Part shown: positions 8,066 through 37,410 of the stretch, piece after piece | Layout of the letters: every line of letters starts with the position of its first letter | Numbering within the stretch: position 1 is the stretch's first letter | DNA from: Brevibacterium sp. W7.2 | GTDB lineage: Bacteria; Actinomycetota; Actinomycetes; Actinomycetales; Brevibacteriaceae | NCBI RefSeq assembly: GCF_018137945.1 | Contig: NZ_CP073089.1 | Location: 2,356,001-2,420,000, forward strand | DNA: 64,000 nucleotides | Direction: 5' to 3' | Notes under the pieces: model-generated | Database searches by the model: none | What the model was told of the DNA's origin: nothing | The model's input: only the letters and a program-made list of their open reading frames with translations | Made by a program: the position numbers and the translations under genes

Positions 8066-8868
8066 CCCCGACCTCCGAGCAGCGTGTCGGCGCTCGGCAG
8101 GGGCAGGAAGCCGGCCACCGAGGCGACGATGAGGGCGACGGTGAGGAGGGGACCGCCTCGGCGGATGAAGGACTGGACCCGGTCGTCGCGGTGATCCTGC
8201 AGGTCAACGGCGTGGTCGGAGCGGGCGAAGCCGCGCTGGTCGAGGACCTCGTGGCGTTGGTCGACGCCGACGAGCAGGGAGGTGAAGAGGCCTGCGACGA
8301 TGCGCGGGAGGAGCCGGATGCGCGTTCCCCACCGGTGCGTCGGCCATCCGCGGGCGGCGAGAGCATCGAGGACGTCGGTGGTGCGTCGGCGCACCAACGG
8401 GATGAGGCTGAGCGCGGAGGCGCAGATGTAGGCCACCGTCGCGGGCAGGCGGAGGGCGATGAGGCCGTCGAAGAGCCGCGCGGAGTCGTTGCCGAGCCCG
8501 AACAGCGCACCGAGGGCGATGAGCGCGGTGACCCGCAGCCAGATCTGGGCCGCGATCGCGAGGCCTTCGACGGTGACGCGAACGGCCCCGGACTGCCAGA
8601 GCACGGTCACCGCCGTCCCGGGGTAGAAGAGGCCCTGCACGAGGCCGACGACGATGAGCAGCGGCAGGCTCAGGCCCGCCACCGTCAGCGCCCATCGGGT
8701 CAGAGAGACCCTCCTCGTCGCCACGGCTGCGATGAGCGAGCCGAGGATGACGGCGGCGGGGACGACAGGTGACGGAATCCCGAACACGAGGAAGAGGGCG
8801 CAGGCCATGACGATGAGGTCGGTGGCCGGGTGCCAGCGAGTTCGGGATTCCGGGATCGCTGTCGTCAT
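8062..8868 (-). CDS. ECF transporter transmembrane T component (EcfT/CbiQ family)
   Basis: 268 residues with several hydrophobic helices from residue 13 on (LIVMACALFLVFGIP, VVPAAVILGSLIAAV, LPLLIVVGLVQGLFYPG) and the cytoplasmic coupling region with the Ala-Arg-Gly motif (LDALAARGW) that contacts the ATPase. The final segment VALIVASVAGFLPL is another helix. It sits between the S component (gap-free) and the ATPase (4-nt overlap), so subunit stoichiometry is set by one mRNA. Confidence 0.92.
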   Translation of the reverse strand: MTTAIPESRTRWHPATDLIVMACALFLVFGIPSPVVPAAVILGSLIAAVATRRVSLTRWALTVAGLSLPLLIVVGLVQGLFYPGTAVTVLWQSGAVRVTVEGLAIAAQIWLRVTALIALGALFGLGNDSARLFDGLIALRLPATVAYICASALSLIPLVRRRTTDVLDALAARGWPTHRWGTRIRLLPRIVAGLFTSLLVGVDQRHEVLDQRGFARSDHAVDLQDHRDDRVQSFIRRGGPLLTVALIVASVAGFLPLPSADTLLGGRG

Positions 8869-9711
8869 TCAGCTCAGACGCTGGGCGCGCGCCTGCGGGG
8901 GACGGCTGTGTTCGGTGAACGGGTACCTGCCGAGGATCCGGCGGGGCAGGGTGCGGAGCACGAGATAGGCGAGGCCGAAGATCAGCGCCTTGTCGATGAT
9001 GTCGGAGACGATGCTCTGGGCGAGAGTCGCGGCGAGCATCTCCTGTCCGGCCGCTTGGAGGATCGCGACGATGCCGCCGGTGCCGGCCCCGAGTCCGCCG
9101 CCGAAGACGTAGGCGGCCACCGGGGCGCCGAGAGCCGCGGCGGGGATTCCCGCGAGCGCACCGGCGAGCACCGCGAACCAGGGGGTGCGGAAGGCGCCGA
9201 GGCGGGCGGCCCATCCGGCGGCGGCGCCGATGAAGGCAGCGCCGGTGGTGAAGGCGATGACGCTGGGGTTGAGGGTCACTCCCCAGATGAGGTTCGAGAT
9301 GATGCCGGTGAACGCTCCGGCTGCCGGTCCGGCGAGAACGCCGATCATCACGGTGCCGATGGAGTCGAGGTAGAGCGGGATCGGGGTGAGCGTGCCGACG
9401 ACCTGGCCGATGACGATGTTGAGGGCGATGGCCACGGGGATGAGCGCGATGATGCTGCGCGGAATGAGCGGCAGGGTGCCGGCCGCCAGGAGGATGCCGC
9501 CGGCGAGGTACCCGACCATGACCCACAGGGTGGTGTGGCCGAGGTCGGTGCCGAGGTTGGCGGGCTGGGTGAGGAGGACGACGAGGTAGGTCGCGAGGAT
9601 GACGGCGGTGCCGAGGACGGTGAGGGTGAGAGTGATGGGGGTTTGTCCGGGACCAGTCGGTGCGGCTGGCCCCTGCCCAGACAGAGTGCGGGTGGTCGTG
9701 TCTCTAACCAT
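8869..9711 (-). CDS. ECF transporter substrate-binding S component
   Basis: 280 residues, strongly hydrophobic. Helices include TLTVLGTAVILATYLVVLLT, VMVGYLAGGILLAAG and IIALIPVAIALNIVIGQVVG. The motif PLYLDSIGTVMIGVLAGP is characteristic of several ECF S-subunits. The gene overlaps the 3' end of the nucleoside hydrolase by 8 nt and is followed directly by the T component. The adjacent hydrolase suggests a nucleoside or nucleoside-like substrate, but the sequence does not settle this. Confidence 0.88.
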   Translation of the reverse strand: MVRDTTTRTLSGQGPAAPTGPGQTPITLTLTVLGTAVILATYLVVLLTQPANLGTDLGHTTLWVMVGYLAGGILLAAGTLPLIPRSIIALIPVAIALNIVIGQVVGTLTPIPLYLDSIGTVMIGVLAGPAAGAFTGIISNLIWGVTLNPSVIAFTTGAAFIGAAAGWAARLGAFRTPWFAVLAGALAGIPAAALGAPVAAYVFGGGLGAGTGGIVAILQAAGQEMLAATLAQSIVSDIIDKALIFGLAYLVLRTLPRRILGRYPFTEHSRPPQARAQRLS

Positions 9712-10786
9712 GGTGTGGTCCCTTCTTCAGTGTGGCGCCGAGGTGGTCGAGGAAGAGTTCGGCATCGATCGAGCGGATGATCTCTGCGTTGGGTTCTCTC
9801 CCCCACCGCCCCAGCCAGTCGGCGACGGTTTCGCCTCGTGTGAGTGTACCGGTGAGTTCGACGTCGACCGGTGCTGTGGCAGTCTGCGACCAGGGCAGGG
9901 TGCTCTCCGACCGGTCAGGATCGCGGGCCCATGCGAGGGCGCAGGCAACGACGAAGGGGTCGTGGATGTGGGCGAGGTAGCCGAGTCCGTCCCATTCGTG
10001 GAACTCGAAGTAGAAGCGCAGGGCCGCGCCGAGTTCACGGAGCACTGTGTGCCACCGGTCGTCCGCATCGCCTGAGAGGATGGCCGCCCAGCGTTCGGGG
10101 GTCATTGCCACGGCTTCGGTGGCTTCGATCGGGGCGATGACGGGCAGAGCGATGTCGGGGTGCTCGTGACGGGCCCGGTCGAAGGCCGCGAGGACGGCGG
10201 CGGTCGATTCGGGGTCGAAGGTGACGTTCCATTCCGTCGTCGGGTGCGTGTTGCCGCGGTAGTTGAAGGCCCCGCCCATGATGAAGAGGCGGCGGAGCAG
10301 GTGGGGCAGCCGGGGTTCGATCTCCAGGGCGAGCGCGAGGTTCGTCGACGGCCCGATGACGATGCCGATGAGCTCGCCGGGGTGCGCGCGGGCGGCGTCG
10401 ACCCACGCCTGTGCCGCCGAGGTGGGGCTGAGCGGCACCGTCGGTTCCGGCAGGGTGGCGTAGCCGGCACCGGTCTGGCCGTGGGTGAGATCGGCGTACT
10501 CGATGTCGACGGTGTCGGGCTCCCCCACCGCCGATCCGGATGGCATCTGTGCGGCCGTTGATCTCTGGCGAGCCAGCGGCAGGGCATGGCCCGCGTGGAC
10601 GGGGATGTCGTCGGCTCCGGCGAGCGTGAGCCATCTCCGCGTGTTCTCGACGACCTGCGCGGTGGGAACGTTCCCGCCCGAGGCGGCGATGCCGACGACA
10701 TCGACGTCGTCCTGGCACAGGAGGTAGGCGAGCGCGAGCGCGTCGTCGATGCCCGGGTCGCAGTCGAGGAAGAGCGGCAGAGTCAT
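9704..10786 (-). CDS. Inosine-uridine preferring nucleoside hydrolase family protein
   Basis: 360 residues. The N-terminal calcium-binding motif LFLDCDPGIDDALALAY is the family signature. The catalytic/His region includes HDPFVVACALAW near residue 290, and GIVIGPSTNLALALE matches the family's substrate loop. It hydrolyses the N-glycosidic bond of ribonucleosides to base and ribose. It is the first gene of a four-gene operon with an ECF transporter, consistent with uptake and salvage. A perfect inverted repeat lies 7 nt upstream of the ATG. Confidence 0.93.
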   Translation of the reverse strand: MTLPLFLDCDPGIDDALALAYLLCQDDVDVVGIAASGGNVPTAQVVENTRRWLTLAGADDIPVHAGHALPLARQRSTAAQMPSGSAVGEPDTVDIEYADLTHGQTGAGYATLPEPTVPLSPTSAAQAWVDAARAHPGELIGIVIGPSTNLALALEIEPRLPHLLRRLFIMGGAFNYRGNTHPTTEWNVTFDPESTAAVLAAFDRARHEHPDIALPVIAPIEATEAVAMTPERWAAILSGDADDRWHTVLRELGAALRFYFEFHEWDGLGYLAHIHDPFVVACALAWARDPDRSESTLPWSQTATAPVDVELTGTLTRGETVADWLGRWGREPNAEIIRSIDAELFLDHLGATLKKGPHHG

Positions 10787-26320: not shown

Positions 26321-26881
26321 TCAGCGTATCGCGTTCAATAGCGAAGGAACGAGATCCGTCAAAGGCCAGGAGCTCCACCGAGTTTTGGTGCCAAACCAAC
26401 CTCGCGCGCCTACAGAGAGTGGCTTGACCATGATCAGGCATGGCGTGGCTTCACCCCAGAGATCGGTCTCCTCCAGCGGGAGAAAACCCCACTTCTCGTA
26501 GAACTGCCGCGTGCGGGCGTAATGCGGGTCCGAATGCGAGGCCCCCAGAGTCTTCACCTGCAACAAGGCCACGCGGCGGCGAACCGCGTCGTCCTCAATA
26601 GCCCGCAGCATCGCGGTGCCGACACCCGCCCCATGAACTGCCCGATCGACGACGATTAGATGCACCTCGGCAACGTGAGCGAAGTGACGTTCGACCAGCG
26701 TGACGCCAACGACACGGTCTCGGTCGTCCCGGACCGTCCAAGTCTCTTTCGAACGTGCGGCCTCGATGTACTCGGCGTTGGACTCAGACTGCCCGAACCT
26801 TTCGGGAACTGCAGCAAGCAAACGAGCCAGATCATCGGGCACTTGCTGGTCGAGCTCAGCGACCCAACCAATGCCACTCAC
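26321..26881 (-). CDS. GNAT acetyltransferase coupled to higA
   Basis: 186 residues from a GTG that overlaps the higA stop (GTGA at 26878-26881). VVGVTLVERHFAHVAEVHLIVV, AVHGAGVGTAMLRAIEDDAV (acetyl-CoA loop) and YARTRQFYEKWGFLPLEETD mark a GNAT. The C-terminal 30 residues (LSVGARGWFGTKTRWSSW) are atypical. The coupling to an antitoxin gene is notable: the enzyme may be an accessory of the HigBA module, but GNAT toxins usually pair with RHH antitoxins, so a toxin role is not assumed. Confidence 0.82.
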   Translation of the reverse strand: MSGIGWVAELDQQVPDDLARLLAAVPERFGQSESNAEYIEAARSKETWTVRDDRDRVVGVTLVERHFAHVAEVHLIVVDRAVHGAGVGTAMLRAIEDDAVRRRVALLQVKTLGASHSDPHYARTRQFYEKWGFLPLEETDLWGEATPCLIMVKPLSVGARGWFGTKTRWSSWPLTDLVPSLLNAIR

Positions 26882-27180
26882 GCGACGCTCAGCGGGGTGA
26901 TCGAAGCGATCTGCTCCCCCGCGAGTTCTTCCGCACGGTCGAGCTCGTAGTGACTCTGCAGGTTGATCCAGAATTCCGCAGATGTGCCGAAGTACCGCGC
27001 GAGACGCAGTGCGGTGTCTGCGGTGATCCCGCGCTTGCCGTGCACGATCTCATTGATCCGCCTGGGAGGGACGCCGATCGACACGGCGAGTTTGTTCTGG
27101 GTGATACCGAATCCCTCGATGAAGTCCTCCATGAGGACCTCCCCTGGGTGGATCGGCTCGATCTTGTCAGTGGTAGTCAA
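26878..27180 (-). CDS. higA: HigA-type XRE antitoxin
   Basis: 100 residues from a TTG at 27180, within the 3' end of higB and preceded by GGAGGTGGAGATCG. It reads TTTDKIEPIHPGEVLMEDF then GITQNKLAVSIGVPPRRINEIVHGKRGITADTALRLARYFG, the standard HigA/VapI helix-turn-helix order. It neutralises HigB and represses the operon. It overlaps higB by 14 nt and the GNAT by 4 nt. Confidence 0.9.
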   Translation of the reverse strand: MTTTDKIEPIHPGEVLMEDFIEGFGITQNKLAVSIGVPPRRINEIVHGKRGITADTALRLARYFGTSAEFWINLQSHYELDRAEELAGEQIASITPLSVA

Positions 27181-27448
27181 CGATCTCCACCTCCTCTGGT
27201 CCGGCGTCGGTCCACGCGAAGCAGATCCGCCACCGGTCGTTGATCCTGATGCTGTGCTGACCGGCCCGATCACCCTTGAGTGCCTCGAGCCGATTGCCGG
27301 GCGGGACACGGAGGTCCACAAGGTACTCTGCGGACCCCACCTGACGCAGCTTGCGCAACGCGACTCGGAGAATCCTCGGATCGATCGAGCGCACGCGTTC
27401 ACGGTGCCACAGCCGCTCGGTCTCCTTGTCGCCGAACGATCTGATCAC
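27167..27448 (-). CDS. higB: HigB-type mRNA interferase toxin (RelE superfamily)
   Basis: 93 residues from a GTG. MIRSFGDKETERLWHRERV opens the family, LRKLRQVGSAEYLVDLRVPPGNRLEALKGDRAGQHSIRINDRWRICFAWTD carries the conserved basic/aromatic catalytic face of HigB (R-x-x-P-G-N-R, IRINDRWRICF). It cleaves mRNA on ribosomes. TACACT ends 6 nt before the GTG, so the mRNA is probably leaderless, and a palindrome lies just upstream of it. Confidence 0.9.
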   Translation of the reverse strand: MIRSFGDKETERLWHRERVRSIDPRILRVALRKLRQVGSAEYLVDLRVPPGNRLEALKGDRAGQHSIRINDRWRICFAWTDAGPEEVEIVDYH

Positions 27449-27460
27449 GACTCCAGTGTA

Positions 27461-27475
27461 TGACGGGTTCCGTCA
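27461..27475. promoter_or_regulatory. TGACGG-GTT-CCGTCA operator upstream of higB
   Basis: A perfect 6-bp-arm inverted repeat directly upstream of the -10-like TACACT (27460-27455 on the minus strand) of higBA. The position, between the -10 and -35 regions, fits HigA autorepression. Confidence 0.6.
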
Positions 27476-27554
27476 ATAACGCTAGACGTCAAACCGGATC
27501 CACCGAGTTCCGGCACATTCCAACCTCTGCAGTTTGGCTGACGCGCGTCAGCCG

Positions 27555-28436
27555 TCAGCGCGTCGTCGGGTGCGCTCCCTGGCTTGGAGCCGCCAAGCTC
27601 GACAGCAGCTTCAAGCTTTCCTCGTGCGGCGAGCCGGGTTCAGCCGTGTAGATCGACAGGTCATGCCTGGCGCGCTTGCCCGTGGGGAGACCGACTGACT
27701 GGTATGTCAATTCGATCTCGCCAACCTCGGGGTGCTGCAGGCGCTTAGTGCCTTCGTGTCGGATGCGGATGTCATGGGAGGCCCAGTATGCGGAGAACGC
27801 CTCACTTGCCGTGGACAGCTCGCCGATGAGTTCGCGCAGGATCTTATCGTAAGGATCGCGTCCGGCCTCGGCCCGCAGGAGCGCCACAGTTACGGCGGCT
27901 CCTGACTCCCAGTCGATGAAGAAGTCCTTGGATCCTTCGTCGAGGAAGTGGTAGCGGGCGAAGTTCGCTGTCCCATCCACAGAGGTAGGGCTGGCGAACA
28001 TCGGTGAGTGCAGAGCGCGACCGAGGGCATTGGAGCCGATGACGTCGAGGCGCCCATTGCGCACGAAAGCGGCGGAGCCGATGATCGAGTCGAGCATCCA
28101 CTGCACCTGTGGCGCGATCGGGACCTCGCGGCGACGGACAGACCTCCGGTGGGTGGGCTTGGCGGCGCGGGCGAGGTCGTTCAGGTAGGTGCGTTCGTCG
28201 TCATCGAGTCGCAGCGCTTCGGCGACCGCGTCGAGGACCTCGGCAGACACTTCGCCGATGTGGCCCTTCTCCAGGCGGGTGTACCACTCGGTGCTCACCC
28301 CGGCGAGAACAGCGACCTCTTCGCGGCGCAGTCCCGGCACACGCCGGCGAGTGCTGGTAGGAAGCCCGACCATATCGGGCGTCAGCTTCGCGCGGCGGCT
28401 GGAAAGGAAGCCTTTGATGTCGTCGCGATTGTCCAT
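27555..28436 (-). CDS. XRE-family regulator with MmyB-like ligand-binding domain
   Basis: 293 residues. N-terminal helix-turn-helix (about 5-80): FLSSRRAKLTPDMVGLP, then RRVPGLRREEVAVLAGVSTEWYTRLEKG. The C-terminal domain (about 105-280) has the MmyB features WMLDSIIGSAAFVRNGRLDVIGSNALGRAL and FIDWESGAAVTVALLRAEAGRDPYD, a possible fatty-acid or small-ligand pocket. It is divergent from the MFS-ADH pair and probably represses it. TACTCT ends 6 nt before the ATG (leaderless). Confidence 0.92.
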   Translation of the reverse strand: MDNRDDIKGFLSSRRAKLTPDMVGLPTSTRRRVPGLRREEVAVLAGVSTEWYTRLEKGHIGEVSAEVLDAVAEALRLDDDERTYLNDLARAAKPTHRRSVRRREVPIAPQVQWMLDSIIGSAAFVRNGRLDVIGSNALGRALHSPMFASPTSVDGTANFARYHFLDEGSKDFFIDWESGAAVTVALLRAEAGRDPYDKILRELIGELSTASEAFSAYWASHDIRIRHEGTKRLQHPEVGEIELTYQSVGLPTGKRARHDLSIYTAEPGSPHEESLKLLSSLAAPSQGAHPTTR

Positions 28437-28445
28437 GGTTCAAGA

Positions 28446-28486
28446 GTAGAAGGGTTCCCATGCGCGAAGGGGGGTCGATCTTCTAC
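28446..28486. promoter_or_regulatory. Inverted heptamers between the XRE regulator and MFS gene
   Basis: GTAGAAG (28446-28452) and CTTCTAC (28480-28486) are perfect inverted arms with 27 nt between. The first overlaps the -10 candidate of the regulator, so the pair could hold two subunits of the XRE repressor. Confidence 0.35.
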
Positions 28487-28573
28487 CCCCTATGAACTCG
28501 ACCTTCCCTGCCTGCGCGAACGGATGCCAAATGGATATCGAGCAAACATCGTCCAACCGTCAATGAGGTATCC

Positions 28574-29818
28574 ATGCACAACGAAGCCGCCACGGCTTTC
28601 ATCCCGACGCAAACCGCACCCAGTGACGACACGCCCAAACTCCGCCTTCCGCTCGTCGTCTACGTCCTGGCGCTGGGCACGTTCCTGATGCTCACGACCG
28701 AGTTCGTGATCGCGGGCATCCTGCCCGAGATCGCCGGCGACCTGGACATCTCGCTCGGCCAAGCCGGGTCATTGATCACAGTGTTCGCAACCGGCATGGT
28801 CATCGGCGCACCGCTGCTGACTATGGTGACATTGCGGCTGTCGAAGAAGCTCACGCTCCTCATCGCACTGATCGTGTTCGTCGCCGGGCATCTGGTCGTC
28901 GCGCTCGCCGAGGACCTCACAGTCCTCACCGGCGCGCGCTTCGTCACCGCACTCGCCACCGGCGCCTTCTGGGCCGTCTCCGCAGTCGTGGCCTCGAACG
29001 TCGTCGGCTCGTCGTTGAAGTCCTCCGCGGTGGGAGTGGTCGCCGCCGGAGGTTCGCTGGCCACAGTGATTGGAGTTACGATCGGAGCGTACCTCGCCCA
29101 ACATGTAGGCTGGCGGGGCACCTTCTGGGCGCTCGGGATCGCCGCGGCGGTCGCCGTGGTATTCGTCGCCCGACTGGTCCCGGCGGACGAGGCACAGCCC
29201 GAGGAGTCTTCCGTGCTGTCCGGGCTCGCGGATCTGCGAACACCGCGCCTCTGGCTCGTGTTGGCCGCCTGCCTGACCACCACGGGCGGCGTGCTCGCCG
29301 CGTACTCGTTCATCGCACCGATTCTCACCATCCAGGCCGGAGTTTCTGCTGGTCTCGTGCCGCTGGTGCTGGCAGGTTTCGGCATCTGCTCCTTCCTCGG
29401 CACCCTACTCGGCGGACGACTGGGCGACAAGCATGCCCACGCCGTGACGATCGCGGCCCCCGCGCTGACGACGCTCGTGCTGCTGGCGATGTCCCTGCTG
29501 CCTGGGTCGACCTGGACCACCGTCGTGCTCGTCGTGCTGCTGGGGGCATTCGGACTCAGCGCCAACAGTGTGCTCATCCACCTCGCCGTCGGCTACGCCG
29601 GCCGCGCGGCCACTCTCGGCTCAGGACTCGCTGTCGCAGCATTCAACGCCGGTACCGCCATCGGCACCACCATCGCCGGAGCCACCCTGACCACTTCGCT
29701 GGGCCTGTCCGGTCCCCCGGTCGCGGGCACGGTGATCGTCGCGCTGTCCCTGATTCCGGCATTCGTCCTCGCGGTCATGACACGCAGAAGCATCGCCGAG
29801 CCAACCCGGTCCGTCTGA
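28574..29818 (+). CDS. Major facilitator superfamily efflux transporter
   Basis: 414 residues, 12 predicted helices. It starts LPLVVYVLALGTFLMLTTEFVIAGILPEIAGDL, the opening of the DHA1/AraJ-Cmx group of exporters, and RLVPADEA marks the central loop. GGRLGDKHAHA resembles the second A-like motif in the C-terminal half. Substrate may be a drug or sugar. The zinc alcohol dehydrogenase follows 34 nt later, and the divergent XRE gene is the likely regulator. Confidence 0.92.
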   Translation: MHNEAATAFIPTQTAPSDDTPKLRLPLVVYVLALGTFLMLTTEFVIAGILPEIAGDLDISLGQAGSLITVFATGMVIGAPLLTMVTLRLSKKLTLLIALIVFVAGHLVVALAEDLTVLTGARFVTALATGAFWAVSAVVASNVVGSSLKSSAVGVVAAGGSLATVIGVTIGAYLAQHVGWRGTFWALGIAAAVAVVFVARLVPADEAQPEESSVLSGLADLRTPRLWLVLAACLTTTGGVLAAYSFIAPILTIQAGVSAGLVPLVLAGFGICSFLGTLLGGRLGDKHAHAVTIAAPALTTLVLLAMSLLPGSTWTTVVLVVLLGAFGLSANSVLIHLAVGYAGRAATLGSGLAVAAFNAGTAIGTTIAGATLTTSLGLSGPPVAGTVIVALSLIPAFVLAVMTRRSIAEPTRSV

Positions 29819-29852
29819 CCACTCAACATCACCCCACGAAGGAGAACACACC

Positions 29853-30896
29853 ATGCGCGCAACGCTCATGTACAAAGCAGGCGACGTCCGGATCGAGGAT
29901 GTCCCCGACTCGATCATCAAGCATCCGACAGACGCTCTGGTGCGTGTCACCGCGTCCTGCATCTGTGGCTCAGACCTGCACCCCTACCACCAGATGACCC
30001 ATGAGAATGGCCCTGCCCGCATGGGCCACGAGCTCATCGGCGTAATCGAAGATCTCGGCAGCGAGGTCACCACTCTGAAGAAGGGCGATTTGGTCGTCTC
30101 CCCGTTCGCTATCTCGGACAACGTGTGCGAGTTCTGCCGTGAGAGTCTCCAGACCTCCTGCATCCACCACGAGGCGACTTTCCTCGACGGCATCGCCGAC
30201 GAGGGCGGCCAGGCCGAAGCCATCCGCATTCCGCTCGCGGACGGCACCCTGGTGAAGCTGCCCGTCGCCGAAGACTCAGCGCTCGTCCCCTCGCTGCTGA
30301 CCCTGGCCGACGTGCTCGGCACCGGTCACCACGCCGCGAAGATGGCCGGAGTCACGCCCGGTCAGCGCGTGACGGTGATCGGCGACGGCGCGGTCGGCCT
30401 CATGGCAGTCCTGTCCGCCAAGCGACTCGGCGCAGAACAGATCATCCTGATGGGTCGTCACACTGGCCGCACCAGCCTCGGACGCGAGTTCGGGGCCACC
30501 GACATCGTCGCCGAGCGCGGCGAGGAGGGCATCGCGAAGGTCCGAGACCTCACCGCCGGCCACGGCGCCCACGCCGTGCTCGAGGCCGTCGGCCATTTGC
30601 CGGCTTACGAGCAGGCGCTCGGCGTCGTCCGCCCAGGCGGTGTGATCAGCCGAGTCGGTGTCCCGCAGTACGAAGACGCCCCGATCGGATTCGGCAGCTT
30701 GTTCCGGCACAACATCCGCCTCGCCGGCGGACCCGCTCCGGTCCGCGCTTACATCGAGGACCTCATGCCTGACATCCTCGATGGCACCATCAACCCCGGC
30801 GAGGTCTTCGATGTCGAGACGGATCTCGACGGTGTCCCGGACGGATACCGCGACATGGACGAGCGACGGAGTCTGAAGGTCCTTATCCGTCCGTAA
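29853..30896 (+). CDS. Zinc-dependent alcohol dehydrogenase (MDR family)
   Basis: 347 residues. Catalytic zinc ligands appear in SCICGSDLHPYH (Cys and the following His) and MGHELIGVIE; a structural-zinc-like CEFCRESLQTSC has three, not four, cysteines. The Rossmann loop is VTVIGDGAVGLMAVL. It resembles IMP-dehydrogenase-unrelated, glutathione-independent aldehyde/alcohol dehydrogenases linked to XRE operons. The substrate is unknown. AAGGAG precedes the ATG. It is probably co-transcribed with the MFS gene. Confidence 0.92.
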   Translation: MRATLMYKAGDVRIEDVPDSIIKHPTDALVRVTASCICGSDLHPYHQMTHENGPARMGHELIGVIEDLGSEVTTLKKGDLVVSPFAISDNVCEFCRESLQTSCIHHEATFLDGIADEGGQAEAIRIPLADGTLVKLPVAEDSALVPSLLTLADVLGTGHHAAKMAGVTPGQRVTVIGDGAVGLMAVLSAKRLGAEQIILMGRHTGRTSLGREFGATDIVAERGEEGIAKVRDLTAGHGAHAVLEAVGHLPAYEQALGVVRPGGVISRVGVPQYEDAPIGFGSLFRHNIRLAGGPAPVRAYIEDLMPDILDGTINPGEVFDVETDLDGVPDGYRDMDERRSLKVLIRP

Positions 30897-30900
30897 CCCT

Positions 30901-31197
30901 GTGAGCGGCGGCGGAGTTGCACTGCCCGCCGTTGCGACGACAAACGGCCTCGCCATCCATGCACTCGCCCGCGACGGGGACCGGGAGTTCCTGTCCTCCC
31001 GCGTCGCGCTGTTCGCTGCTGACGCCACCGACCCGACTTTCATCGAAGCAGCGGCCCAGCGCATCGACCTTGTCGTGCTCGCCCACGCCGCCCACAGCTC
31101 CCCACGAGGAGTTGGAGAAAGTCGACTTCGGCGAGGTGATGCCGGTGCTCGAGGTGATCAAGTGCCATGACATCGCGATCGTGCTGTTGACACACTT
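30901..31197 (+). pseudogene. Frameshifted NAD(P)-binding (SDR-like) remnant
   Basis: Four nt after the dehydrogenase stop, a frame from GTG 30901 reads VSGGGVALPAVATTNGLAIH and IDLVVLAHAAHSS, a Rossmann-like start. The continuation (PHEELEKVDFGEVMPVLEVI) is in another frame after a slip near 31101-31106 (CCCC). The protein then breaks off about 100 residues in. It looks like a decayed short-chain reductase once in the MFS-dehydrogenase operon. The family assignment is tentative. Confidence 0.4.
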
Positions 31198-31198
31198 C

Positions 31199-31297
31199 GA
31201 GTCACCGCGCCGACGCAGCTCCACAACCAGGAACTGGGCATCTTCGAACTCAGGCGCCGCAGCGAATAGCTCGTCCGTCGGAATCAAAAACAGCGAA
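31199..31297 (-). pseudogene. Fragment downstream of the original ychF stop
   Basis: Eleven nt after the stranded ychF stop, a TTG-initiated frame (31287) reads IPTDELFAAAPEFEDAQFLV then VELRRRGDSK and dissolves into sequence antisense to the SDR remnant. The compact, acidic/hydrophobic composition of the first 30 residues looks coding, so it may be the start of a truncated gene. I recognise no family. Confidence 0.3.
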
Positions 31298-31326
31298 CTA
31301 GATGTTGAAGCGGAACTCCACCACGT
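31298..31326 (-). repeat. Left copy of the ychF 3' end (original chromosomal end)
   Basis: 31304-31326 is identical over 23 bp to 36258-36280 inside ychF. On the minus strand it encodes VVEFRFN, followed here by ATC TAG (Ile, stop) rather than GTG TGA (Val, stop). This is what is left of the host's own ychF end after an element inserted. It defines the left boundary of the island; only the 23-bp match is seen directly, integration is inferred. Confidence 0.85.
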
Positions 31327-31453
31327 TCCGTAGCCGAATCACCTTTGGCGACAGCGACTCGCGCTTTGGCGAGCGTACGTCGCTCGTGATGCGCCATCGC
31401 ACGCCTATCCTGGGCAAGAGGGTGACCACAGGCGCGCGAGGAGGACCGAGGGA

Positions 31454-32210
31454 ATGGCATTGAGTCCGTCGCAGGGGCGCCGACCGGGACTGCACCCGGC
31501 GTTGTCGACGCGTCAGGGGTTCGCGCTCCTTGGGGAGGCCGGGTCAGTGCGCAACCTCCTGCGCGACTCCGTGGAGGCGATCCGAAGCCTTCGCTTCGTC
31601 TCCCTGCACGGTGATGGCGTATTCACTCTGGGTAGCATCGGCGTGGAGAAGGCCATGAAGGTCATGCTCGGCTGCACCGAGGTCGAGGCCGCGGGCTCAT
31701 GGCCCTCCAAGAAGACCCTCAAAGACGGACCGGGGCCACGACATCCAGAGGTTAAGTCAGCTGCTCGACACGGCGATCGAACGCGGCCTGACGCGGTCCA
31801 CCCACACCGGGTACGCGGAGAGTCTCTTTGATCGGATCAGCGGAAGCACCACGCTCCCGCTTCTCTTCGCGACGTTCGCTCGGTACGGGAAGTCGGGGCG
31901 CTTCCACCACTTGGACGTCCTCGCCACCAACGAGCCCGGCTCGGACGATCCACCGTCCGAGTACTGGGAGCGAGTCGAGTTCCACGTGAGGACCACAAAT
32001 CGAGAGATCGCCGAAGTCCCTTATGGAGACAATCAGGCGCTGAACGAGTACGAGGCCCGACTGCGGGGCCGAATCGCCGACGAGCTGGAGGCCTGGTGGT
32101 CCTGCGTCCACCGCCTCGGCGTCCAGGGCTGCTTCGGCGACCTTGGCGAGAAGATCGGCTGGGAGATCTGGGAGCCAGGGCGCTCCGGGCCGCCAATCGT
32201 GAAGAACTAG
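31454..32210 (+). pseudogene. HEPN-like protein, frameshifted at a G4 run
   Basis: The first frame (31454 on) reads LLRDSVEAIRSLRFVSLHGDG and TLGSIGVEKAMKVMLGC, then TLKDGPG before a shift; the second frame resumes GHDIQRLSQLLDTAI and ends at 32210. Removing one G from GGGG (31732-31735) restores a 251-residue protein. Helical content, the GVEKAMK motif and GHDI resemble HEPN-like toxins, but I cannot place the family. The start has GAGGAGG upstream. It may be a true pseudogene, a phase-variable gene or a sequencing error. Confidence 0.5.
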
Positions 32211-32303
32211 TCCAACATCATGTCCCCCGGGTAATCACAGACGAGTCCTAGTACCAGGCGGGCAGGCCAAGCGTAGGCCGGGCTTCCTCAGTGTGGCGCT
32301 TCA

Positions 32304-32309
32304 TATACT
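32304..32309 (+). promoter_or_regulatory. TATACT -10 element of the Mrr-like gene
   Basis: A perfect -10-type TATACT ending 6 nt before the ATG at 32316, with no Shine-Dalgarno. This suggests a leaderless transcript. I see no convincing -35 hexamer. Confidence 0.55.
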
Positions 32310-32315
32310 GACTAC

Positions 32316-33128
32316 ATGGAGAAGGTGCCCGAACAACCACTCGACGATGAGGCGATGGACGTCGCCGGGCCTGAGCGCGACTTCGCCCTCGGCTCCCTTG
32401 ACTTCGAAGGGCTATCGCCCACCGATTTCGAAGAGTTCTGCTTCGATCTCATGGCCGAGAGTGGCTTCTCCAATGTGGACTGGAGAAAGGGGACTCCGCT
32501 CGCCGCATCGCCGTCCGATCGTGGCCGAGATATCGTCGCGCGCCGGTCCATGAAGGACATTGACGGGCACGAGTACGAGGAGCGCTGGTTCGTCGACTGC
32601 AAGCACTACAAGCGCGGCGTTCCTCCCGACGTGCTCCAGGGGGCCATCGCCTGGGCCAGTGCTGAGCGCCCGTCAGTGCTCCTCTTCATTGCATCCGGCT
32701 ATCTCACCAACGGGGCTAAGGATTGGATCGCGGACTACCAGCGCTCAAACAATCCGCCCTTCCGGATCCGCATATGGGAGAAGCCGCAGCTCCTTCGACT
32801 CGTTGAGCAGAACCTAGATCTAGCTTTCAAGCACGATGTTGGGACGAGCACGCTGCGACGGGTGTCAGAGATTCTGGAGGCCGAGTCAATGCTCATGGAT
32901 CGGCTCTGGTACGGGCGCAAACCGGCGGACGAGAACGTGGACCACTACGATTGGCCCGATAACATCAAAGCCGGAATGCTCGCAGCAAAGCGCCAAGTCG
33001 AGGAGCAGTACGGCAAGGAAGAGCTAGCGAAGGATGTGGAGTCAGACTGGGCGTGGGGCTACCTCTCGGGACGGATCTCCGCTGTGCGCTGGGTGCTGGG
33101 GGACGACTGGCACAACCTCGACAGCTGA
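32316..33128 (+). CDS. Mrr-like restriction endonuclease-fold protein
   Basis: 270 residues. The PD-(D/E)xK-type core is at about 33-140: LSPTDFEEFCFDLMAESGF, then RGRDIVARR (Asp72) and WFVDCKHYKRG (Asp94-Cys-Lys96), then PSVLLFIASGYLTNGAKDWI. This is the Mrr_cat layout, where the enzyme cleaves modified or foreign DNA. The C-terminal half (about 175-270) is acidic and predicted helical, ending RWVLGDDWHNLDS, and has no recognised fold. It lies on the island between the HEPN-like gene and a convergent AAA+ operon. Confidence 0.8.
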   Translation: MEKVPEQPLDDEAMDVAGPERDFALGSLDFEGLSPTDFEEFCFDLMAESGFSNVDWRKGTPLAASPSDRGRDIVARRSMKDIDGHEYEERWFVDCKHYKRGVPPDVLQGAIAWASAERPSVLLFIASGYLTNGAKDWIADYQRSNNPPFRIRIWEKPQLLRLVEQNLDLAFKHDVGTSTLRRVSEILEAESMLMDRLWYGRKPADENVDHYDWPDNIKAGMLAAKRQVEEQYGKEELAKDVESDWAWGYLSGRISAVRWVLGDDWHNLDS

Positions 33129-33266
33129 CGAATAATGATCGAACCACACGGGGGACTTCCTATTGCGAGATGGCTACTTAGATGCTTCATCGTGCAGTCG
33201 TGCGCCCGGTCCGCCATCCCCGATGCGGTAACCACAACGTCATGACCCACGACGACCATTACAAAA

Positions 33267-33629
33267 TCACCAGTAAATCGCTACCACTTCGGCCTCAAGG
33301 AAGTTCACTGGCGCGTTCTCTACGTTACCTTCTGGCCCGTCGGTGACAGCCGACTCGTTGAGCAATGCGAGTCGCGCGACGGCCTGGTACGCCTGTCGAA
33401 GCGTCCGCACCAGTTGCCGGTCGATCGGAGCCGGCTCGGTTGACTCGGCGAGTGAAGGAGAAGCCTCGACCGCCGCGACTACCTTTTCGAACCCTCTTCG
33501 CACGATCCCGATGTCCCGCAGTTCCTCTAACGTGCCTACGGATTTTGCAGCGTCTGTGGAGACCTCCGAAAGCATTTCCGCTGAGGTATCCCGGGTTGTC
33601 AGCTGGGCGAGGTCGCGTCCGAACGGCAC
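33267..33629 (-). CDS. Small helical protein following the DUF6414-like gene
   Basis: 120 residues from GTG 33629, in the same frame as the preceding gene and separated from it by TAA and two codons. SAEMLSEVSTDAAKSVGTLE, LRDIGIVRRGFEKVVAAVEA and QLVRTLRQAYQAVARLAL are amphipathic helices. No family is recognised and no ribosome-binding site is visible, so it is probably translated by reinitiation after the upstream stop. It may alternatively be the C-terminal domain of a once longer protein. It is the last gene of the AAA+ operon. Confidence 0.6.
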   Translation of the reverse strand: MPFGRDLAQLTTRDTSAEMLSEVSTDAAKSVGTLEELRDIGIVRRGFEKVVAAVEASPSLAESTEPAPIDRQLVRTLRQAYQAVARLALLNESAVTDGPEGNVENAPVNFLEAEVVAIYW

Positions 33630-33635
33630 AAGCGC

Positions 33636-34691
33636 TTAGTCGCGGAGTACCTCGGAAACCGCTGGGGCGTCAGCCTGCTGAGTAACACTTCGAGCCTTCT
33701 CGAACAGGTACGAGAGATCGCGAATTTGGTCCCCGACCTCGGGGAGGAAGCGGTCGAAGACATCAGCGAGCTTGACCGGTGACCAGGATGTCTGGATCCC
33801 AGGTCTGGATAGCCGAGCGTAGACCGAGTAGGCCGAGTCGCCGAAGAGTACGCGGCGAACGTCCTTCCAATAGAGCGGCAGCTCCGTCACTCCCACGAGG
33901 TGTACTTCGCTCGCATCGTGGTCGAGCACGCTACCGTTAGCGATCATTGACGCGTCGACGAGCCATGAAGCGTCCTCGACCACGACCACGCGGTGGCTGG
34001 TCACACGGGCTTGGAGGGGCACCAAGTCAACGAGAAGACGAGATAGCAATTCGAGTACCCGCTGAACCTCTCCCACGGCGCTCTCCTCAATGCCAAACAT
34101 CTCGGCGCGCCCTTCGACAAGGTCGATCATCGATGACACGGCTGCCGTGAACTGGTAGCTCCACTCGGGGCTGAGTTCGACTTGGACCTCGACGACGTCC
34201 CCACGGAGGAGGTCTTGGGCGCGCACTGCACGGCGTTGTTTCTCGAGCTTAGGGAGGTGATGTGCCAAGGACTTTACGGTGGCAACTGCTGCCGGCTTCG
34301 GACGATCTGGCTGGTCTTCGACTGAGACTCTCAGGTCTGCGTCGCCGATCCGTAGTGTGCGGAAGGTGCCCTGGGCGACCGCACGGCGCACCACCTCTTG
34401 CGATGTGGTTCGAGAGGATGCCGATCGCGTTGACATGCCTAACCCGGGACCCGCGGGCGTTGACGGAAGCGCGAGCGAGGTACCCGCGTCGGAGGAGGTG
34501 GTGGCACTGAGAGTGTCTTTGAACGACTCGGGCACCGAGCCGTGCCGAGCGGCCACCAAGCTGGTGACACTGGTCTCGTCGAGGTACACGAACTCACGGC
34601 GCTTGTGCTTCCACTCCTGGGACTGCCGTCGCCGCCGCCAAGCACGTCCAACTGCGATGAAGGGAGCTTTAACGATGGTGAGAATGCTCAT
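33636..34691 (-). CDS. DUF6414-like protein
   Basis: 351 residues. Basic N-terminus (RAWRRRRQSQEWKHKRREF), then FVYLDETSVTSLVAARHGS, which I associate with DUF6414 (YLDE-x-SV-x-SL motif). A Ser/Thr-rich segment (about 60-95) follows, then two alpha/beta parts: VVEVQVELSPEWSYQFTAAV and VHLVGVTELPLYWKDVRRVLF. The C-terminus ends WSPVKLADVFDRFLPEVGDQI. Function unknown. The ATG overlaps the AAA+ stop (ATGA at 34688-34691), so the two are made together and probably interact. Confidence 0.7.
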   Translation of the reverse strand: MSILTIVKAPFIAVGRAWRRRRQSQEWKHKRREFVYLDETSVTSLVAARHGSVPESFKDTLSATTSSDAGTSLALPSTPAGPGLGMSTRSASSRTTSQEVVRRAVAQGTFRTLRIGDADLRVSVEDQPDRPKPAAVATVKSLAHHLPKLEKQRRAVRAQDLLRGDVVEVQVELSPEWSYQFTAAVSSMIDLVEGRAEMFGIEESAVGEVQRVLELLSRLLVDLVPLQARVTSHRVVVVEDASWLVDASMIANGSVLDHDASEVHLVGVTELPLYWKDVRRVLFGDSAYSVYARLSRPGIQTSWSPVKLADVFDRFLPEVGDQIRDLSYLFEKARSVTQQADAPAVSEVLRD

Positions 34692-35932
34692 TCACGCCCC
34701 TCCTGGCGTCGGGAGATTTCGCGGTTGCGAGCGGCCCGCGCTAGCCCGGCAGTGACGTCTTCAGCACAGAGTTCATCTCGCTCGTCAAGCACCGCCAACA
34801 CACCGGCCTCGGTCCAGATCATTGCCAGTTCTGCTGCGCTCCAACGGTCGGTAGTTTCGACCAAGAGTTGCCAGTCGGCACAGTCGGCACCATGTACCCC
34901 GCGGGCAGATGCCTGAAGGATCTTCAGTCGATCTTCGGGGCTGGGGTTACCCTCAAACTCGAGTTTGTATGTAAGTCGCCCGGGTCGAAGAAGTGCGGTA
35001 TCGAGCGCGCCGGGGAGGTTGGTGGAGGCAATCACTAGCACGCCCTTTCTGGCGTCGAACCCGTCAAGGGCCGTTAGGAACTGCCAGACGAAGCGGCTCG
35101 CATACTCCGGGGCGTCATCTCCTCGACTGGCTACAATACTGTCGAGCTCGTCAAAGAAAATGATGGCAGGGGCGTGTTCCTCGGCGTGCCGGAACAACGA
35201 CCGCAGCCGTTGCTCGCTCTCGCCCACCCACTTGTTGATAATTTCCGGCCCGTCGACCAAGTAGAAGCGAGTGCCGATCTCTTTGCTCAAAACACGAGCA
35301 AGGTGCGTCTTGCCGGTGCCAGACGGACCGCTAAAGAGGATGCCCTTCACAGGGTTAACGCCGATTCGTTGAAGACGCTGCACAGGATCAAGAGCGACGC
35401 GCGCCAGTTCAAGCGCTCGCTCGACCAACGCGCTCGAACCCCCAAAGTCGGCCAAAGAGACCTCACCCGGGTCTTTAACGAAGCTCGTGGGATCGAGCTC
35501 GTCCTCGGCGCGGCCGAAACGGTCGATGGGCTTGCTACTCAAAACTGGCCCTGGTCGACCGTCCACATCGACGGCAAGTGTCTGCCCTTTGACGAAAGGG
35601 GTCGTCTCGCGCTGAGCGAATGTCTGGAGCCTGCCGTTGATTTCAAGCACGGCGGTCGATCCATCCTCGCTGATCAAACTCACGGTTGCAACGTCTCCCC
35701 CGCGAATCAGCCAGTCTTCTTCGGTGAGCAACCTGACCGGGTCGTCATCGTCGACCTCGTCGGGAACGTAGAGGATCTGGCCAGCCTCAACATTGTCCAT
35801 CAGCGACTGGCGAAACCAGCCCGAGGCGCCATCGCGACGGTCGAACCAGACCAGGCCGGCTTCCTCGTCAACTCTCCTCACTCGCAAAATCGAGCCGTAG
35901 CTAAGGTCTACCTCGTCGCTCGTGTTGCTCAC
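34688..35932 (-). CDS. Classic-clade AAA+ ATPase with N-terminal beta domain
   Basis: 414 residues from GTG 35932. The N-terminal about 140 residues (SYGSILRVRRVDEEAGLVWF, then VATVSLISEDGSTAVLEING) look like two small beta-barrel (OB-like) units, as in Mpa/ARC or p97-type regulators. The AAA+ module: Walker A GPSGTGKT (202-209), pore loop KWVGES (234-239), Walker B IIFFDE (257-262), second-region-of-homology ending ALLRPGRL with arginine finger. It should be a hexameric unfoldase or remodeller. It lacks the C-terminal proteasome-docking tail. Start: TATACT (35945-35940) ends 7 nt before the GTG; an upstream TTG (35962) would lie above it. Confidence 0.85.
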   Translation of the reverse strand: MSNTSDEVDLSYGSILRVRRVDEEAGLVWFDRRDGASGWFRQSLMDNVEAGQILYVPDEVDDDDPVRLLTEEDWLIRGGDVATVSLISEDGSTAVLEINGRLQTFAQRETTPFVKGQTLAVDVDGRPGPVLSSKPIDRFGRAEDELDPTSFVKDPGEVSLADFGGSSALVERALELARVALDPVQRLQRIGVNPVKGILFSGPSGTGKTHLARVLSKEIGTRFYLVDGPEIINKWVGESEQRLRSLFRHAEEHAPAIIFFDELDSIVASRGDDAPEYASRFVWQFLTALDGFDARKGVLVIASTNLPGALDTALLRPGRLTYKLEFEGNPSPEDRLKILQASARGVHGADCADWQLLVETTDRWSAAELAMIWTEAGVLAVLDERDELCAEDVTAGLARAARNREISRRQEGRE

Positions 35933-35939
35933 GCCCGGC

Positions 35940-35945
35940 AGTATA
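35940..35945 (-). promoter_or_regulatory. TATACT -10 element of the AAA+ operon
   Basis: A perfect TATACT on the minus strand ending 7 nt before GTG 35932, the same arrangement as at the Mrr-like gene. It supports the leaderless GTG as the true start rather than the upstream TTG. Confidence 0.5.
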
Positions 35946-36251
35946 TCTGCGAGTTCCGGCAACTCCGCGTGGCAACACGCCCCCGCGACGCATCCCGGGG
36001 ACGTGTCTCACCTATCCGTCGTTGCGTCGATCGCTGGCAGCTGTGGGCGACTCGCGGCGCACCGAGCCGCCGAACCGGCCCTAGCCACCGGGATCAACGA
36101 AGAGGCGCGGTTGCCAATCGCCTCGCGGGTCTCACGCGCCCCCAGAGACCAGACGGGCAGAGCCATAGTCCCGCGAAGGGGCAAACCGATGTGGTGTGGA
36201 CGGGATCGCGAAGCAGACCGCTAGCCCGACACGAACTCAGTAGCGCCAAGT
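35946..36251. other. Gene-free stretch between the AAA+ operon and ychF
   Basis: About 300 bp at the right edge of the island. Open frames here show no family sequence, and I see no strong hairpin or tRNA-like piece. It is presumably the upstream region of the AAA+ operon plus the element end. Confidence 0.4.
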
Positions 36252-37337
36252 TCACACGTTGAAGCGGAACTCCACCACGTCCCCATCGACCATGACGTAG
36301 TCCTTGCCTTCCATCCGCACCTTGCCGGCGGACTTGGCGGCCGCCATCGAGCCGGTGGCGTCGAGATCGTCGAAGGAGACGACCTCGGCCTTGATGAAGC
36401 CCTTCTGGAAGTCGGTGTGGATGACTCCGGCCGCCTCGGGGGCAGTCGCACCCTTCGGGATCGTCCACGCGCGCGATTCCTTCGGCCCTGCGGTCAGATA
36501 GGTCTGGAGACCGAGCGTGTCGAACCCGACGCGGGCGAGTTGATCGAGTCCGCTCTCCTCCTGACCGGTCGACTCGAGCATCTCCCGCGCCTCGTCCTCG
36601 TCGAGCTCTGCGAGCTCGGACTCGAACTTCGCATCGAGGAAGATCGCCTCGACCGGGGCCACCAGCGCCCGCATCTCGTCCTTCTTCGCCTCATCGCCGA
36701 GCACCTCGTCATCGACATTGAAGACGTAGAGGAACGGCTTCGTCGTCATCAGCTGAAGCTCCCGCAGCGGCGAGACGTCGAACTTGTCCGTGTGCATCGC
36801 CTGGTAGAGCGTCCGCCCGCTCTCGAGGATCTCCGTGGCGGCATCCATCGCCGTGAGCAGCTCGGCCGGCGCCCGCTTGCCCTTGACGTCCTTCTCGATC
36901 CGCGGGCGCGCCTTCTCCAGCGTCTGGAGGTCGGCGAGGATGAGCTCGGTGTTGATCGTGTCGATGTCATCGGCCGGGCTGATCTTGCCGTCGACGTGGA
37001 CGACATCGTCATCGACGAAACCGCGGATGACCTGGCAGATCGCGTCGGCTTCGCGGATGTTCGCAAGGAACTGGTTGCCCAGCCCCTCACCCTCGGAGGC
37101 ACCGCGCACGATTCCGGCGATGTCGACGAAGTCGACGGTCGCGTTGAGGATCCGCTCCGACCCGAAGATCTCGGCCAGGCGCGTCAGCCGCGCATCCGGC
37201 AGGGGCACAACGCCCACATTCGGCTCGATCGTCGCGAACGGATAGTTCGCCGCGAGAACCTGGTTCTTGGTCAGTGCATTAAACATGGTCGACTTGCCGA
37301 CATTGGGCAGTCCCACGATTCCGATTGTCAGTGCCAC
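36252..37337 (-). CDS. ychF: Redox-regulated ATPase/GTPase YchF
   Basis: 361 residues from GTG 37337 (ALTIGIVGLPNVGKSTMFNAL), the usual YchF start; a TTG three codons upstream is in frame. G1 loop GLPNVGKS, DIAGIVRGASEGEGLGNQFL and FNVDDEVLGDEA match Obg-family YchF, with a C-terminal TGS domain. It binds ATP and acts in translation and stress. Its last residues VVEFRFNV come from the right repeat (36258-36280); the original ending I-stop is stranded at 31298. A TAGACT sits about 8 nt before the GTG. Confidence 0.96.
   Translation of the reverse strand: MALTIGIVGLPNVGKSTMFNALTKNQVLAANYPFATIEPNVGVVPLPDARLTRLAEIFGSERILNATVDFVDIAGIVRGASEGEGLGNQFLANIREADAICQVIRGFVDDDVVHVDGKISPADDIDTINTELILADLQTLEKARPRIEKDVKGKRAPAELLTAMDAATEILESGRTLYQAMHTDKFDVSPLRELQLMTTKPFLYVFNVDDEVLGDEAKKDEMRALVAPVEAIFLDAKFESELAELDEDEAREMLESTGQEESGLDQLARVGFDTLGLQTYLTAGPKESRAWTIPKGATAPEAAGVIHTDFQKGFIKAEVVSFDDLDATGSMAAAKSAGKVRMEGKDYVMVDGDVVEFRFNV
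36258..36280. repeat. Right copy of the 23-bp ychF-end repeat
   Basis: Identical to 31304-31326. It lies within the ychF coding end, so the insertion kept the gene in frame while exchanging the last codon and stop. Confidence 0.85.
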
Positions 37338-37410
37338 GGTAGTCAAGTCTATCCCGGCGCCGAGGCGGTCCCCGAATCCTCGTGTCCGTGCCGTCTGTCA
37401 CCCTGAAGTC

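Follow-up and report, generated by a model that had tools for sequence, protein, structure and literature searches.

How does a 5-kb block of accessory genes come to lie at the end of a housekeeping gene with no recombinase beside it? The question is raised by a 64,000-nt stretch of the Brevibacterium sp. W7.2 genome—contig NZ_CP073089.1, positions 2,356,001 to 2,420,000, referred to in full as the window; the genome is a single contig of 3.86 Mb—in which the 3′ end of ychF recurs about 5 kb further on. An initial annotation, made from the letters alone, had proposed that an island with a ychF-like end recombined into the gene here. Our analysis suggests that the ychF 3′ end very probably serves as attachment site (attB) for large serine integrases of one family, borne on small elements, and that the block is one of the cassettes such visiting elements left behind.

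The ychF end of the window holds an inserted cassette

Two exact copies of the 23-mer GTTGAAGCGGAACTCCACCACGT are present in the window, at 31304-31326 and 36258-36280, and none on the opposite strand, bearing out the identical repeats originally described. As also described, the right copy forms the end of ychF (36252..37346, minus strand; an open reading frame (ORF) with Pfam matches YchF-GTPase_C and MMR_HSR1), reading ...VVEFRFNV and TGA, and the left copy reads ...VVEFRFNI and TAG.

Aligning the ychF-downstream DNA of relatives had been predicted to expose an empty site, and genome G042 has one. Its YchF protein is 100% identical to that of the window, its ychF ends in FNV-TAG, and the gene runs directly into the DNA found beyond the left repeat in the window. 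Stretches 70-1745 and 6672-10487 of the reverse-oriented window align to G042 at 97.3% and 98.0% identity, respectively; the two blocks meet there, overlapping by 28 bp where ychF ends, and exactly 4,954 bp are missing. Given this empty site, we conclude that, as had been supposed, an element ending like ychF did insert and replaced the ychF tail: the gene received new last codons and a stop, and the host’s own end was left behind.

That proposal needs refinement in three respects. The repeat does mark the exchange, but the exchange point is the GGT/GT within it (36274-36275 and 31320-31321) and not the whole repeat. From crossover to crossover, the inserted unit, cassette 1, spans 31321..36274 (4,954 bp). 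At the ychF end stands an attB-type site, B-GT-B′ (36249..36300, minus strand), whose central GT was placed at 36275-36274 by the crossover mapping described below; the last ychF codons and the stop, right of the crossover, come from cassette 1. At the far end lies a P-GT-B′ junction (31295..31346, minus strand; central GT 31321-31320), its P arm being the end of cassette 1 and its B′ arm the ychF end left behind. An inserted block is thus confirmed by G042, but it is not a lone island: it is one unit of a multi-cassette array. Its composition, said to be unlike the surroundings, is indeed lower in G+C (0.619, compared with 0.67 in the far flanks), but only mildly so, and the DNA just to the left (27503-31320), itself part of the same array, is intermediate (0.654).

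The reported lack of a nearby integrase held up: no tyrosine recombinase lies near the block, and both PF00589 genes of the window genome are distant. A tyrosine recombinase had been suggested as something to look for; a large serine integrase acting from elsewhere is the likely recombinase instead.

The site recurs downstream of ychF across Brevibacterium

Other islands with the same end were sought with a 50-position site model, trained on 69 distal copies and counted above a score of 25, in stretches from 56 Brevibacterium genomes (G013 was left out, having no true ychF match). Downstream of ychF this returned 131 copies in 46 of the 56 genomes, at most eight per genome, a few of them within longer ychF duplications (loci L083 and L084). 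At that threshold, the other strand of these 1.16 Mb yielded two copies, both from the L059 contig with an inverted ychF, and shuffled sequence scored no higher than 7.5. An alternative pattern (≤2 mismatches) matched 38 of 57 Brevibacterium genomes and its control none; in the nine single-contig genomes with matches, 17 of 17 lay at ychF or ≤21 kb downstream of it. For the notion of a chance repeat next to unrelated insertions and deletions, with no system behind it, we found no supporting point. The strand bias, the low shuffled score, the empty site in G042 and the inter-genus cassette identity reported below contradict it, leaving it next to no credence.

The 102 array intervals first delimited in Brevibacterium, which take in whole integrase elements, measured 320-15,000 bp (median 1,698). 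Arrays of G022 and G025 hold copies of the ychF 3′ end that are 150-163 codons long (L083 9550-9999; L084 3928-4413 and 18304-18750, with ychF oriented +), possibly products of homologous exchange or a distinct type of element. On the 24-kb contig C3 of G046 (L059, L060), several ychF copies occur in both orientations; the genome is listed with 5% contamination, and these copies may be an assembly artefact.

Exchange is bracketed to the centre of an imperfect palindrome

Distal sites have the approximate form AGAGGTTnnTCnG...CGGAACnnG-GT-nGAGTTCCG, after which comes the ychF end; the palindrome is centred on the GT at positions 9-10. The crossover was mapped by comparing 333 unique sites through pairs that share only the preceding or only the following DNA. 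At a 90% threshold, the 39 pairs sharing preceding DNA were alike through position 10 and at background at 11, and the 43 pairs sharing following DNA were unlinked through 11 and reached full linkage only at 21 and beyond. With the threshold raised to ≥97%, 14 pairs of the latter kind were unlinked at positions 6-7 and linked from position 8 rightwards (linkage 1.0 at 8-10, 12-14 and 17; 0.86 at 11; 0.93 at 18). Among 16 left-sharing pairs at ≥97%, a comparison that falls in a region conserved anyway, the first difference came at position 11 in five, at 9 in one, earlier in five and later in five. Read together, the site comparisons bracket the exchange to positions 8-10 (GGT), matching the exchange at the centre of an imperfect palindrome that is expected of a large serine integrase. 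Two earlier readings were dropped: a crossover at positions 21-23, because loose thresholds had mixed in distant toxin-antitoxin cassettes, and an attC-like hairpin, because exchange maps to the palindrome centre.

The CGGAAC/GTTCCG arms around an 8-bp spacer are of the kind seen in tyrosine recombinase core sites, and arrays of small cassettes resemble integrons, so that a tyrosine integrase, Xer or a classical integron integrase might be thought to move the cassettes. Bracketing of the crossovers to the central GGT speaks against such an agent, as do the gene contents: 60 Brevibacterium stretches plus the window piece held no tyrosine-recombinase-like ORF (best E 0.047), 83 further loci gave one weak match (L191, E 3.1e-5), and G000, G003, G022 and G025 have arrays with just two PF00589 genes each. 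We consider this explanation highly improbable. As an observation apart, two to three neighbouring tyrosine recombinase genes occur in L096 (G049:C62:5000-8800), L097 (G017:C38) and L098 (G015:C14:5500-9000), resembling recombinase-in-trio (RIT) elements.

A further possibility is that ychF 3′ ends arrived on foreign DNA and recombined, whether homologously or illegitimately. This would fit the long ychF-end copies inside the G022 and G025 arrays, which do look like homologous exchange. The usual repeats, however, are short, with a nearly fixed exchange point and unrelated flanks on both sides; most informative close pairs break at the same place; and the P arm is not ychF sequence, the P and ychF B consensus being alike at 12 of 25 positions. 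As a general account, it is very unlikely.

The arms instead point to a pair of integrase attachment sites. A P′-type ychF C-terminus, VVEFRSGLTSGGKK and variants (the RSGLTSGGKK tail), was present in 12 of the 55 Brevibacterium genomes with a readable end; of the remaining 43, 40 end in FNV and three are odd. The P arm agrees with the reverse complement of P′ at 20 of 25 consensus positions (best of 20,000 shuffles, 15), and within G006 alone at 19 of 25. Judged by its letters, the layout is that of serine-integrase sites: attP as P-P′, attB as B-B′, attL as B-P′ and attR as P-B′. The RSGLTSGGKK tail had been considered as the ancestral ychF end; this was given up, since the integrase association shows it to be an inserted P′ arm. 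Behind P′-type tails, loci L071 (1635-3571), L074 (1652-3588) and L075 (1602-3538; all oriented) carry a 1,936-bp unit encoding a 595-615-aa ORF.

A serine integrase clade accompanies P′-type ychF tails

In P′-tailed genomes, PF00239 matches with open frames of 510-600 aa adjoin ychF or a site, among the matches listed. Four integrases make up alignment A1, in which the others are 57, 48 and 50% identical to the first. The members scanned (L218, L047 and L248) score above the cutoffs for Resolvase (PF00239) and Recombinase (PF07508), PDB matches of A1 include TP901-1, PhiC31 and other serine recombinases, and S15 in the motif YLR[IV]S—presumably the catalytic nucleophile—is invariant across the four rows. 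Searches for the clade were single-pass; an iterated profile was discarded, as it collected ORFs overlapping other genes.

Among 57 Brevibacterium genomes, five carry an intact A1 integrase (G001, G006, G019, G032 and G040) and one a broken copy (G039), other matches being partial and much weaker. All intact copies occur in P′-tailed genomes: 5 of 12 such genomes have one, as opposed to none of the 43 whose tails are of other kinds (Fisher p 2.3e-4). In four of these five genomes, the integrase gene shares a contig with ychF and lies 1.1-19.4 kb downstream of it; in G006, it is on a different contig, where its start is ~33 bp away from a P-B′ site core. With the best three candidates per genome scored, A1 was found at E 1e-80 in at least 1 of 394 genomes of the class and at least 8 of 396 of the order, two of the latter being Brevibacterium. 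All seven non-Brevibacterium genomes with A1 have it downstream of ychF and within 15 kb—within 0.2 kb in G431, G584, G591 and G653, and at 8.7-14.4 kb in G556, G694 and G725—and all seven have P′-type ychF tails. In G431, a P-B′-type junction (score 30) follows 9.7 kb further on.

Two carriers illustrate the elements. That of L050 (8.0 kb) has integrase, MobA/VirD2-type relaxase, NikA-like and helicase/Rep-like genes; that of L047 (9.2 kb) has the integrase, ArdA and a Rep-type protein, and no relaxase family was matched in six further ORFs scanned. We refer to the carriers as putative integrative mobilizable elements (IMEs), because at least one Brevibacterium element has mobilization genes, and would expect them to spread by conjugative transfer. 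Both loci also show composite layouts of an element plus adjacent cassettes. Furthermore, cassettes of Brevibacterium (L039, L058, L081 and L229) and Acidipropionibacterium (L181, with L180 added by a weaker search) have, immediately inward of the P arm, N-terminal integrase remnants of ~60 aa that are 90-95% identical, which marks these units as decayed elements.

Cassettes are exchanged whole between actinomycete genera

An exact search of GTDB contigs with a cassette-end pattern that excludes ychF itself returned 101 stretches, all with actinomycete titles and from more than 30 named genera. For the 83 loci L114-L196 (three of them phage-collection records), the fetched stretch included ychF in 33. 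In 38 further genomes, 37 had a ychF match, and in 27 of these the site lay 0.9-26 kb downstream on the same strand; in the other ten the coordinates of site and ychF do not fit, probably reflecting different contigs. These neighbourhood counts leave out 12 of the 83 loci as well as L197-L217.

In plasmid and phage collections, one 61-base site used as query matched four weak plasmid records, one of which lies under ychF of a Tsukamurella record by its listing, and four phage-labelled records, and the same query revealed no integrase-bearing attP there. Two of the three phage-labelled records fetched carry ychF and therefore look like bacterial DNA. L114 (MT836021.1, labelled as a phage from human faeces) has ychF and a further site 1.2 kb downstream and looks like a bacterial chromosome with a ychF array.

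We compared 285 units cut at the crossovers from 174 loci, a set in which some DNA is present twice, since named contigs and genomes overlap. Inter-genus pairs that matched over their full length joined Brachybacterium and Nesterenkonia (99.6%, 1,167 bp), Microbacterium and Brevibacterium (99.5%, 1,313 bp), Thermocrispum and Brachybacterium (99.0%, 1,875 bp), and Brevibacterium and Nocardioides (97.1%, 612 bp). Both flanks were unrelated in four of five such pairs (identity 0.23-0.40 across 200 bp; in one case the left flank was just 40 bp long), and the fifth also had its left neighbour in common. Full-length identity between unrelated flanks indicates that the unit of transfer is the cassette between crossovers.

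A model for recombinase-less cassettes

We propose that an element with attP (P-GT-P′) would insert at attB (B-GT-B′) inside ychF, yielding B-P′ at the gene, with a new tail that is typically RSGLTSGGKK, and P-B′ at the far end. An array unit starts with a B′ arm and ends with a P arm. As the B′ arm encodes the last ychF codons, each insertion replaces the end of the gene without breaking it. On excision, the B-P′ junction of the element could pair with any of several P-B′ junctions, and this choice would determine whether neighbouring cassettes are carried off or dropped. In the next host, excision from the nearer P-B′ would deposit the cassettes in the layout B-B′ cassette P-B′. By such carry-over, or by direct insertion in trans, cassette 1 may have arrived in the window, the integrase element being gone since. 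The cycle uses only the standard attP × attB and attL × attR reactions.

Several observations weigh against this model. The integrase clade is missing from the window genome (21 of 21 candidates scored), from 50 further Brevibacterium genomes of the 57, and, in intact form, from 7 of the 12 that are P′-tailed. The crossover data are imperfect: at 90%, the 43 right-sharing pairs stay near background at positions 12-20; at ≥97%, position 20 differs in 7 of 14 right-sharing pairs (0.5), and 5 of 16 left-sharing pairs are alike beyond position 10, so that individual pairs do not all give a clean break. The 1,936-bp unit of L071, L074 and L075 has a ychF-like left arm at its end in place of a P arm. 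In a class-wide sample, the pattern at ≤2 mismatches matched 21 of 388 genomes, at any position in the genome, and the control matched two; the system is thus patchy, and some of these matches may be due to chance. Finally, the B-B′ cassette P-B′ layout is no product of a single standard attP × attB reaction, and so either the carry-over step or an attR × attB reaction is needed.

The latter is the basis of an alternative without carry-over, in which free P-B′ circles are inserted into the B-B′ of ychF by a serine integrase acting in trans, much as in an integron. Direct insertion would give exactly the B-B′ cassette P-B′ layout; several units measure just 0.3-1 kb, too short for recombinase or transfer genes; and full-length identical units stand beside unrelated neighbours. 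However, attR × attB is not known as a standard serine-integrase reaction, and the composite layouts expected from carry-over are present in L047 and L050. We regard this route as possible but rather unlikely. The same tentative standing applies to its wider form, a serine-recombinase counterpart of the integron that inserts and removes free single-gene P-B′ cassettes at the ychF attB by attR × attB in trans. If true, many actinomycetes would draw on a common stock of cassettes through one housekeeping gene, across the bounds of genus and order.

Cargo of the window array and its relatives

Cassette 1 encodes an AAA+ ATPase that is IetA-like and an anti-phage candidate (34688..35962, minus strand; Pfam AAA E 1.4e-36, PADLOC IetA E 9.4e-29), although its score against NCBIfam IteA_antiphage, 86 bits, is under that model's cutoff of 510 and is exceeded by its scores against other AAA models. 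On the same strand lie a DUF6414 protein (33636..34691; PF19952 E 5.5e-33) and a small ORF with no family found in Pfam and PADLOC scans (33267..33629); on the plus strand, a protein with an Mrr-type restriction endonuclease domain (32316..33128; Pfam Mrr_cat E 1.4e-13, PADLOC PDC-M58A E 3.5e-13) and two short ORFs with no family found (31454-31831 and 31911-32210, together 31454..32210). None of the Pfam matches of the six cassette-1 ORFs scanned is an integration or transfer gene. From the family names, our guess is that the cargo serves phage defence.

Cassette 2 (27503..31320, 3,818 bp) is the first cassette behind ychF in G042, at 98.0% identity, and comprises, by family scan, a zinc alcohol dehydrogenase (29853-30896, plus strand), a major facilitator superfamily (MFS) transporter (28574-29818, plus) and an MmyB-type regulator (27555-28436, minus). 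Beyond it, weak degenerate sites near 27503 and 26378 make a third unit probable. The first (27477..27528, minus) has a 3-bp deletion in the right arm, with a left-half score of 11.2 and a full score <8; the other (26352..26403, minus) is weak, with a left-half score of 14.1. The probable cassette 3 (26378..27502, ~1.1 kb; site model and family scans) would contain a HigB toxin (27167-27448, minus), a helix-turn-helix antitoxin-type protein (within 26878-27402, minus) and a GNAT acetyltransferase (26321-26881, minus) whose ORF extends through the fourth site. By its sequence, the window array has two clear units and probably this third. In G042, unit 2 is followed by two more small units and then a toxin-antitoxin unit.

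The HigBA unit of the window starts directly at the site, with an inverted repeat (27450-27510, minus strand; TAG CGttattgacgg...) that recurs before HigB in many units and is probably the operator of the HigBA unit. Of the ORF clusters in the Brevibacterium intervals, the HigB/HigA type was also the commonest (16 of 279 ORFs; assigned by sequence together with a single Pfam scan). Among the cassette ORFs scanned (104 of 172 listed), each Pfam or PADLOC family had at most three matches, so the cargo is very diverse. Two units of 14-15 kb (L079 1677-15863 and L075 4169-19169, oriented loci), each with several proteins of 650-1,360 aa, are possibly multi-gene defence systems.

Relation to known systems

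The ychF arrays work like staphylococcal cassette chromosome (SCC) islands and the accretion of cis-mobilizable elements (CIMEs), look like an integron array, and differ from each in a defining feature. By the features generally attributed to SCC and composite SCC islands at rlmH/orfX, the two systems share a large serine recombinase, the 3′ end of a conserved housekeeping gene as target, junctions marked by direct repeats, units in tandem, and units without recombinase genes. The target here is the 3′ end of ychF instead of rlmH, the hosts are actinomycetes, and units often hold one or two genes (median 1.7 kb). Against SCC models, the integrases scored 58-67 bits for CcrB (cutoff 900), 29-46 for CcrA (700) and 32-45 for CcrC (900; three of four proteins).

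Classical examples of CIME and integrative and conjugative element accretion use tyrosine integrases. Cassette 1, like a CIME, is without integration or transfer genes (Pfam, six ORFs), but a CIME keeps the attL and attR of its parent, whereas the left junction in the window is of the attB type B-B′ and not B-P′. CIMEs are described as decayed units, lacking integration and transfer genes, that build up side by side at a shared site and can be mobilized together with a newly arriving element (PMC5704250). According to the same review, the genes disrupted by the site-specific serine-recombinase IMEs so far studied are dispensable ones (PMC5704250). IMEs of the Tn4451/TndX type have the serine recombinase in common with the ychF system, where L050 adds a MobA/VirD2-type relaxase and a NikA-like gene; here, by contrast, ychF is kept by re-supplying its end.

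With integrons and clusters of attC sites lacking an integron integrase (CALINs), as commonly characterized, the arrays share short exchangeable cassettes, often toxin-antitoxin, one site orientation, a palindromic site and no nearby integrase. They differ in that no IntI-type tyrosine integrase was found near in the stretches searched, the one weak tyrosine-recombinase match in 83 further loci being that of L191, and in that exchange falls at the central GGT/GT, beside a serine-integrase clade. For actinomycete integrative and conjugative elements (AICEs) at a Streptomyces tRNA-Arg gene, successive integration at one site, decay and possible cis-mobilization are described (PMC9513070). The target differs, and the traB, Rep and integrase genes by which AICEs are classified are mostly missing from ychF cassettes. 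Pneumococcal elements are reported to integrate upstream of ychF. In the open-access literature, we found no paper that places a serine-integrase site at the 3′ end of ychF, although supplementary tables of surveys may list ychF; the gene is unmentioned in the text of PMC5704250, PMC12884075, PMC10083194 and PMC9513070, supplementary files lying outside this search.

Implications

The proposed system would explain the integrase-less islands behind ychF in actinomycetes and supply a rule for finding them, namely P-B′ sites centred on GT. The cassette comparisons also show recent exchange of small cassettes among genera such as Microbacterium, Brevibacterium, Brachybacterium, Nesterenkonia, Nocardioides and Thermocrispum. 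Natural serine integrases with one conserved target, at which the entered gene is preserved, could serve genome engineering. The model further raises a testable question: whether recombinase-less cassettes move through the junction choice of a visiting element. For Brevibacterium sp. W7.2, a 5-kb island with no apparent engine of its own would be one unit of a widespread gene-exchange system.

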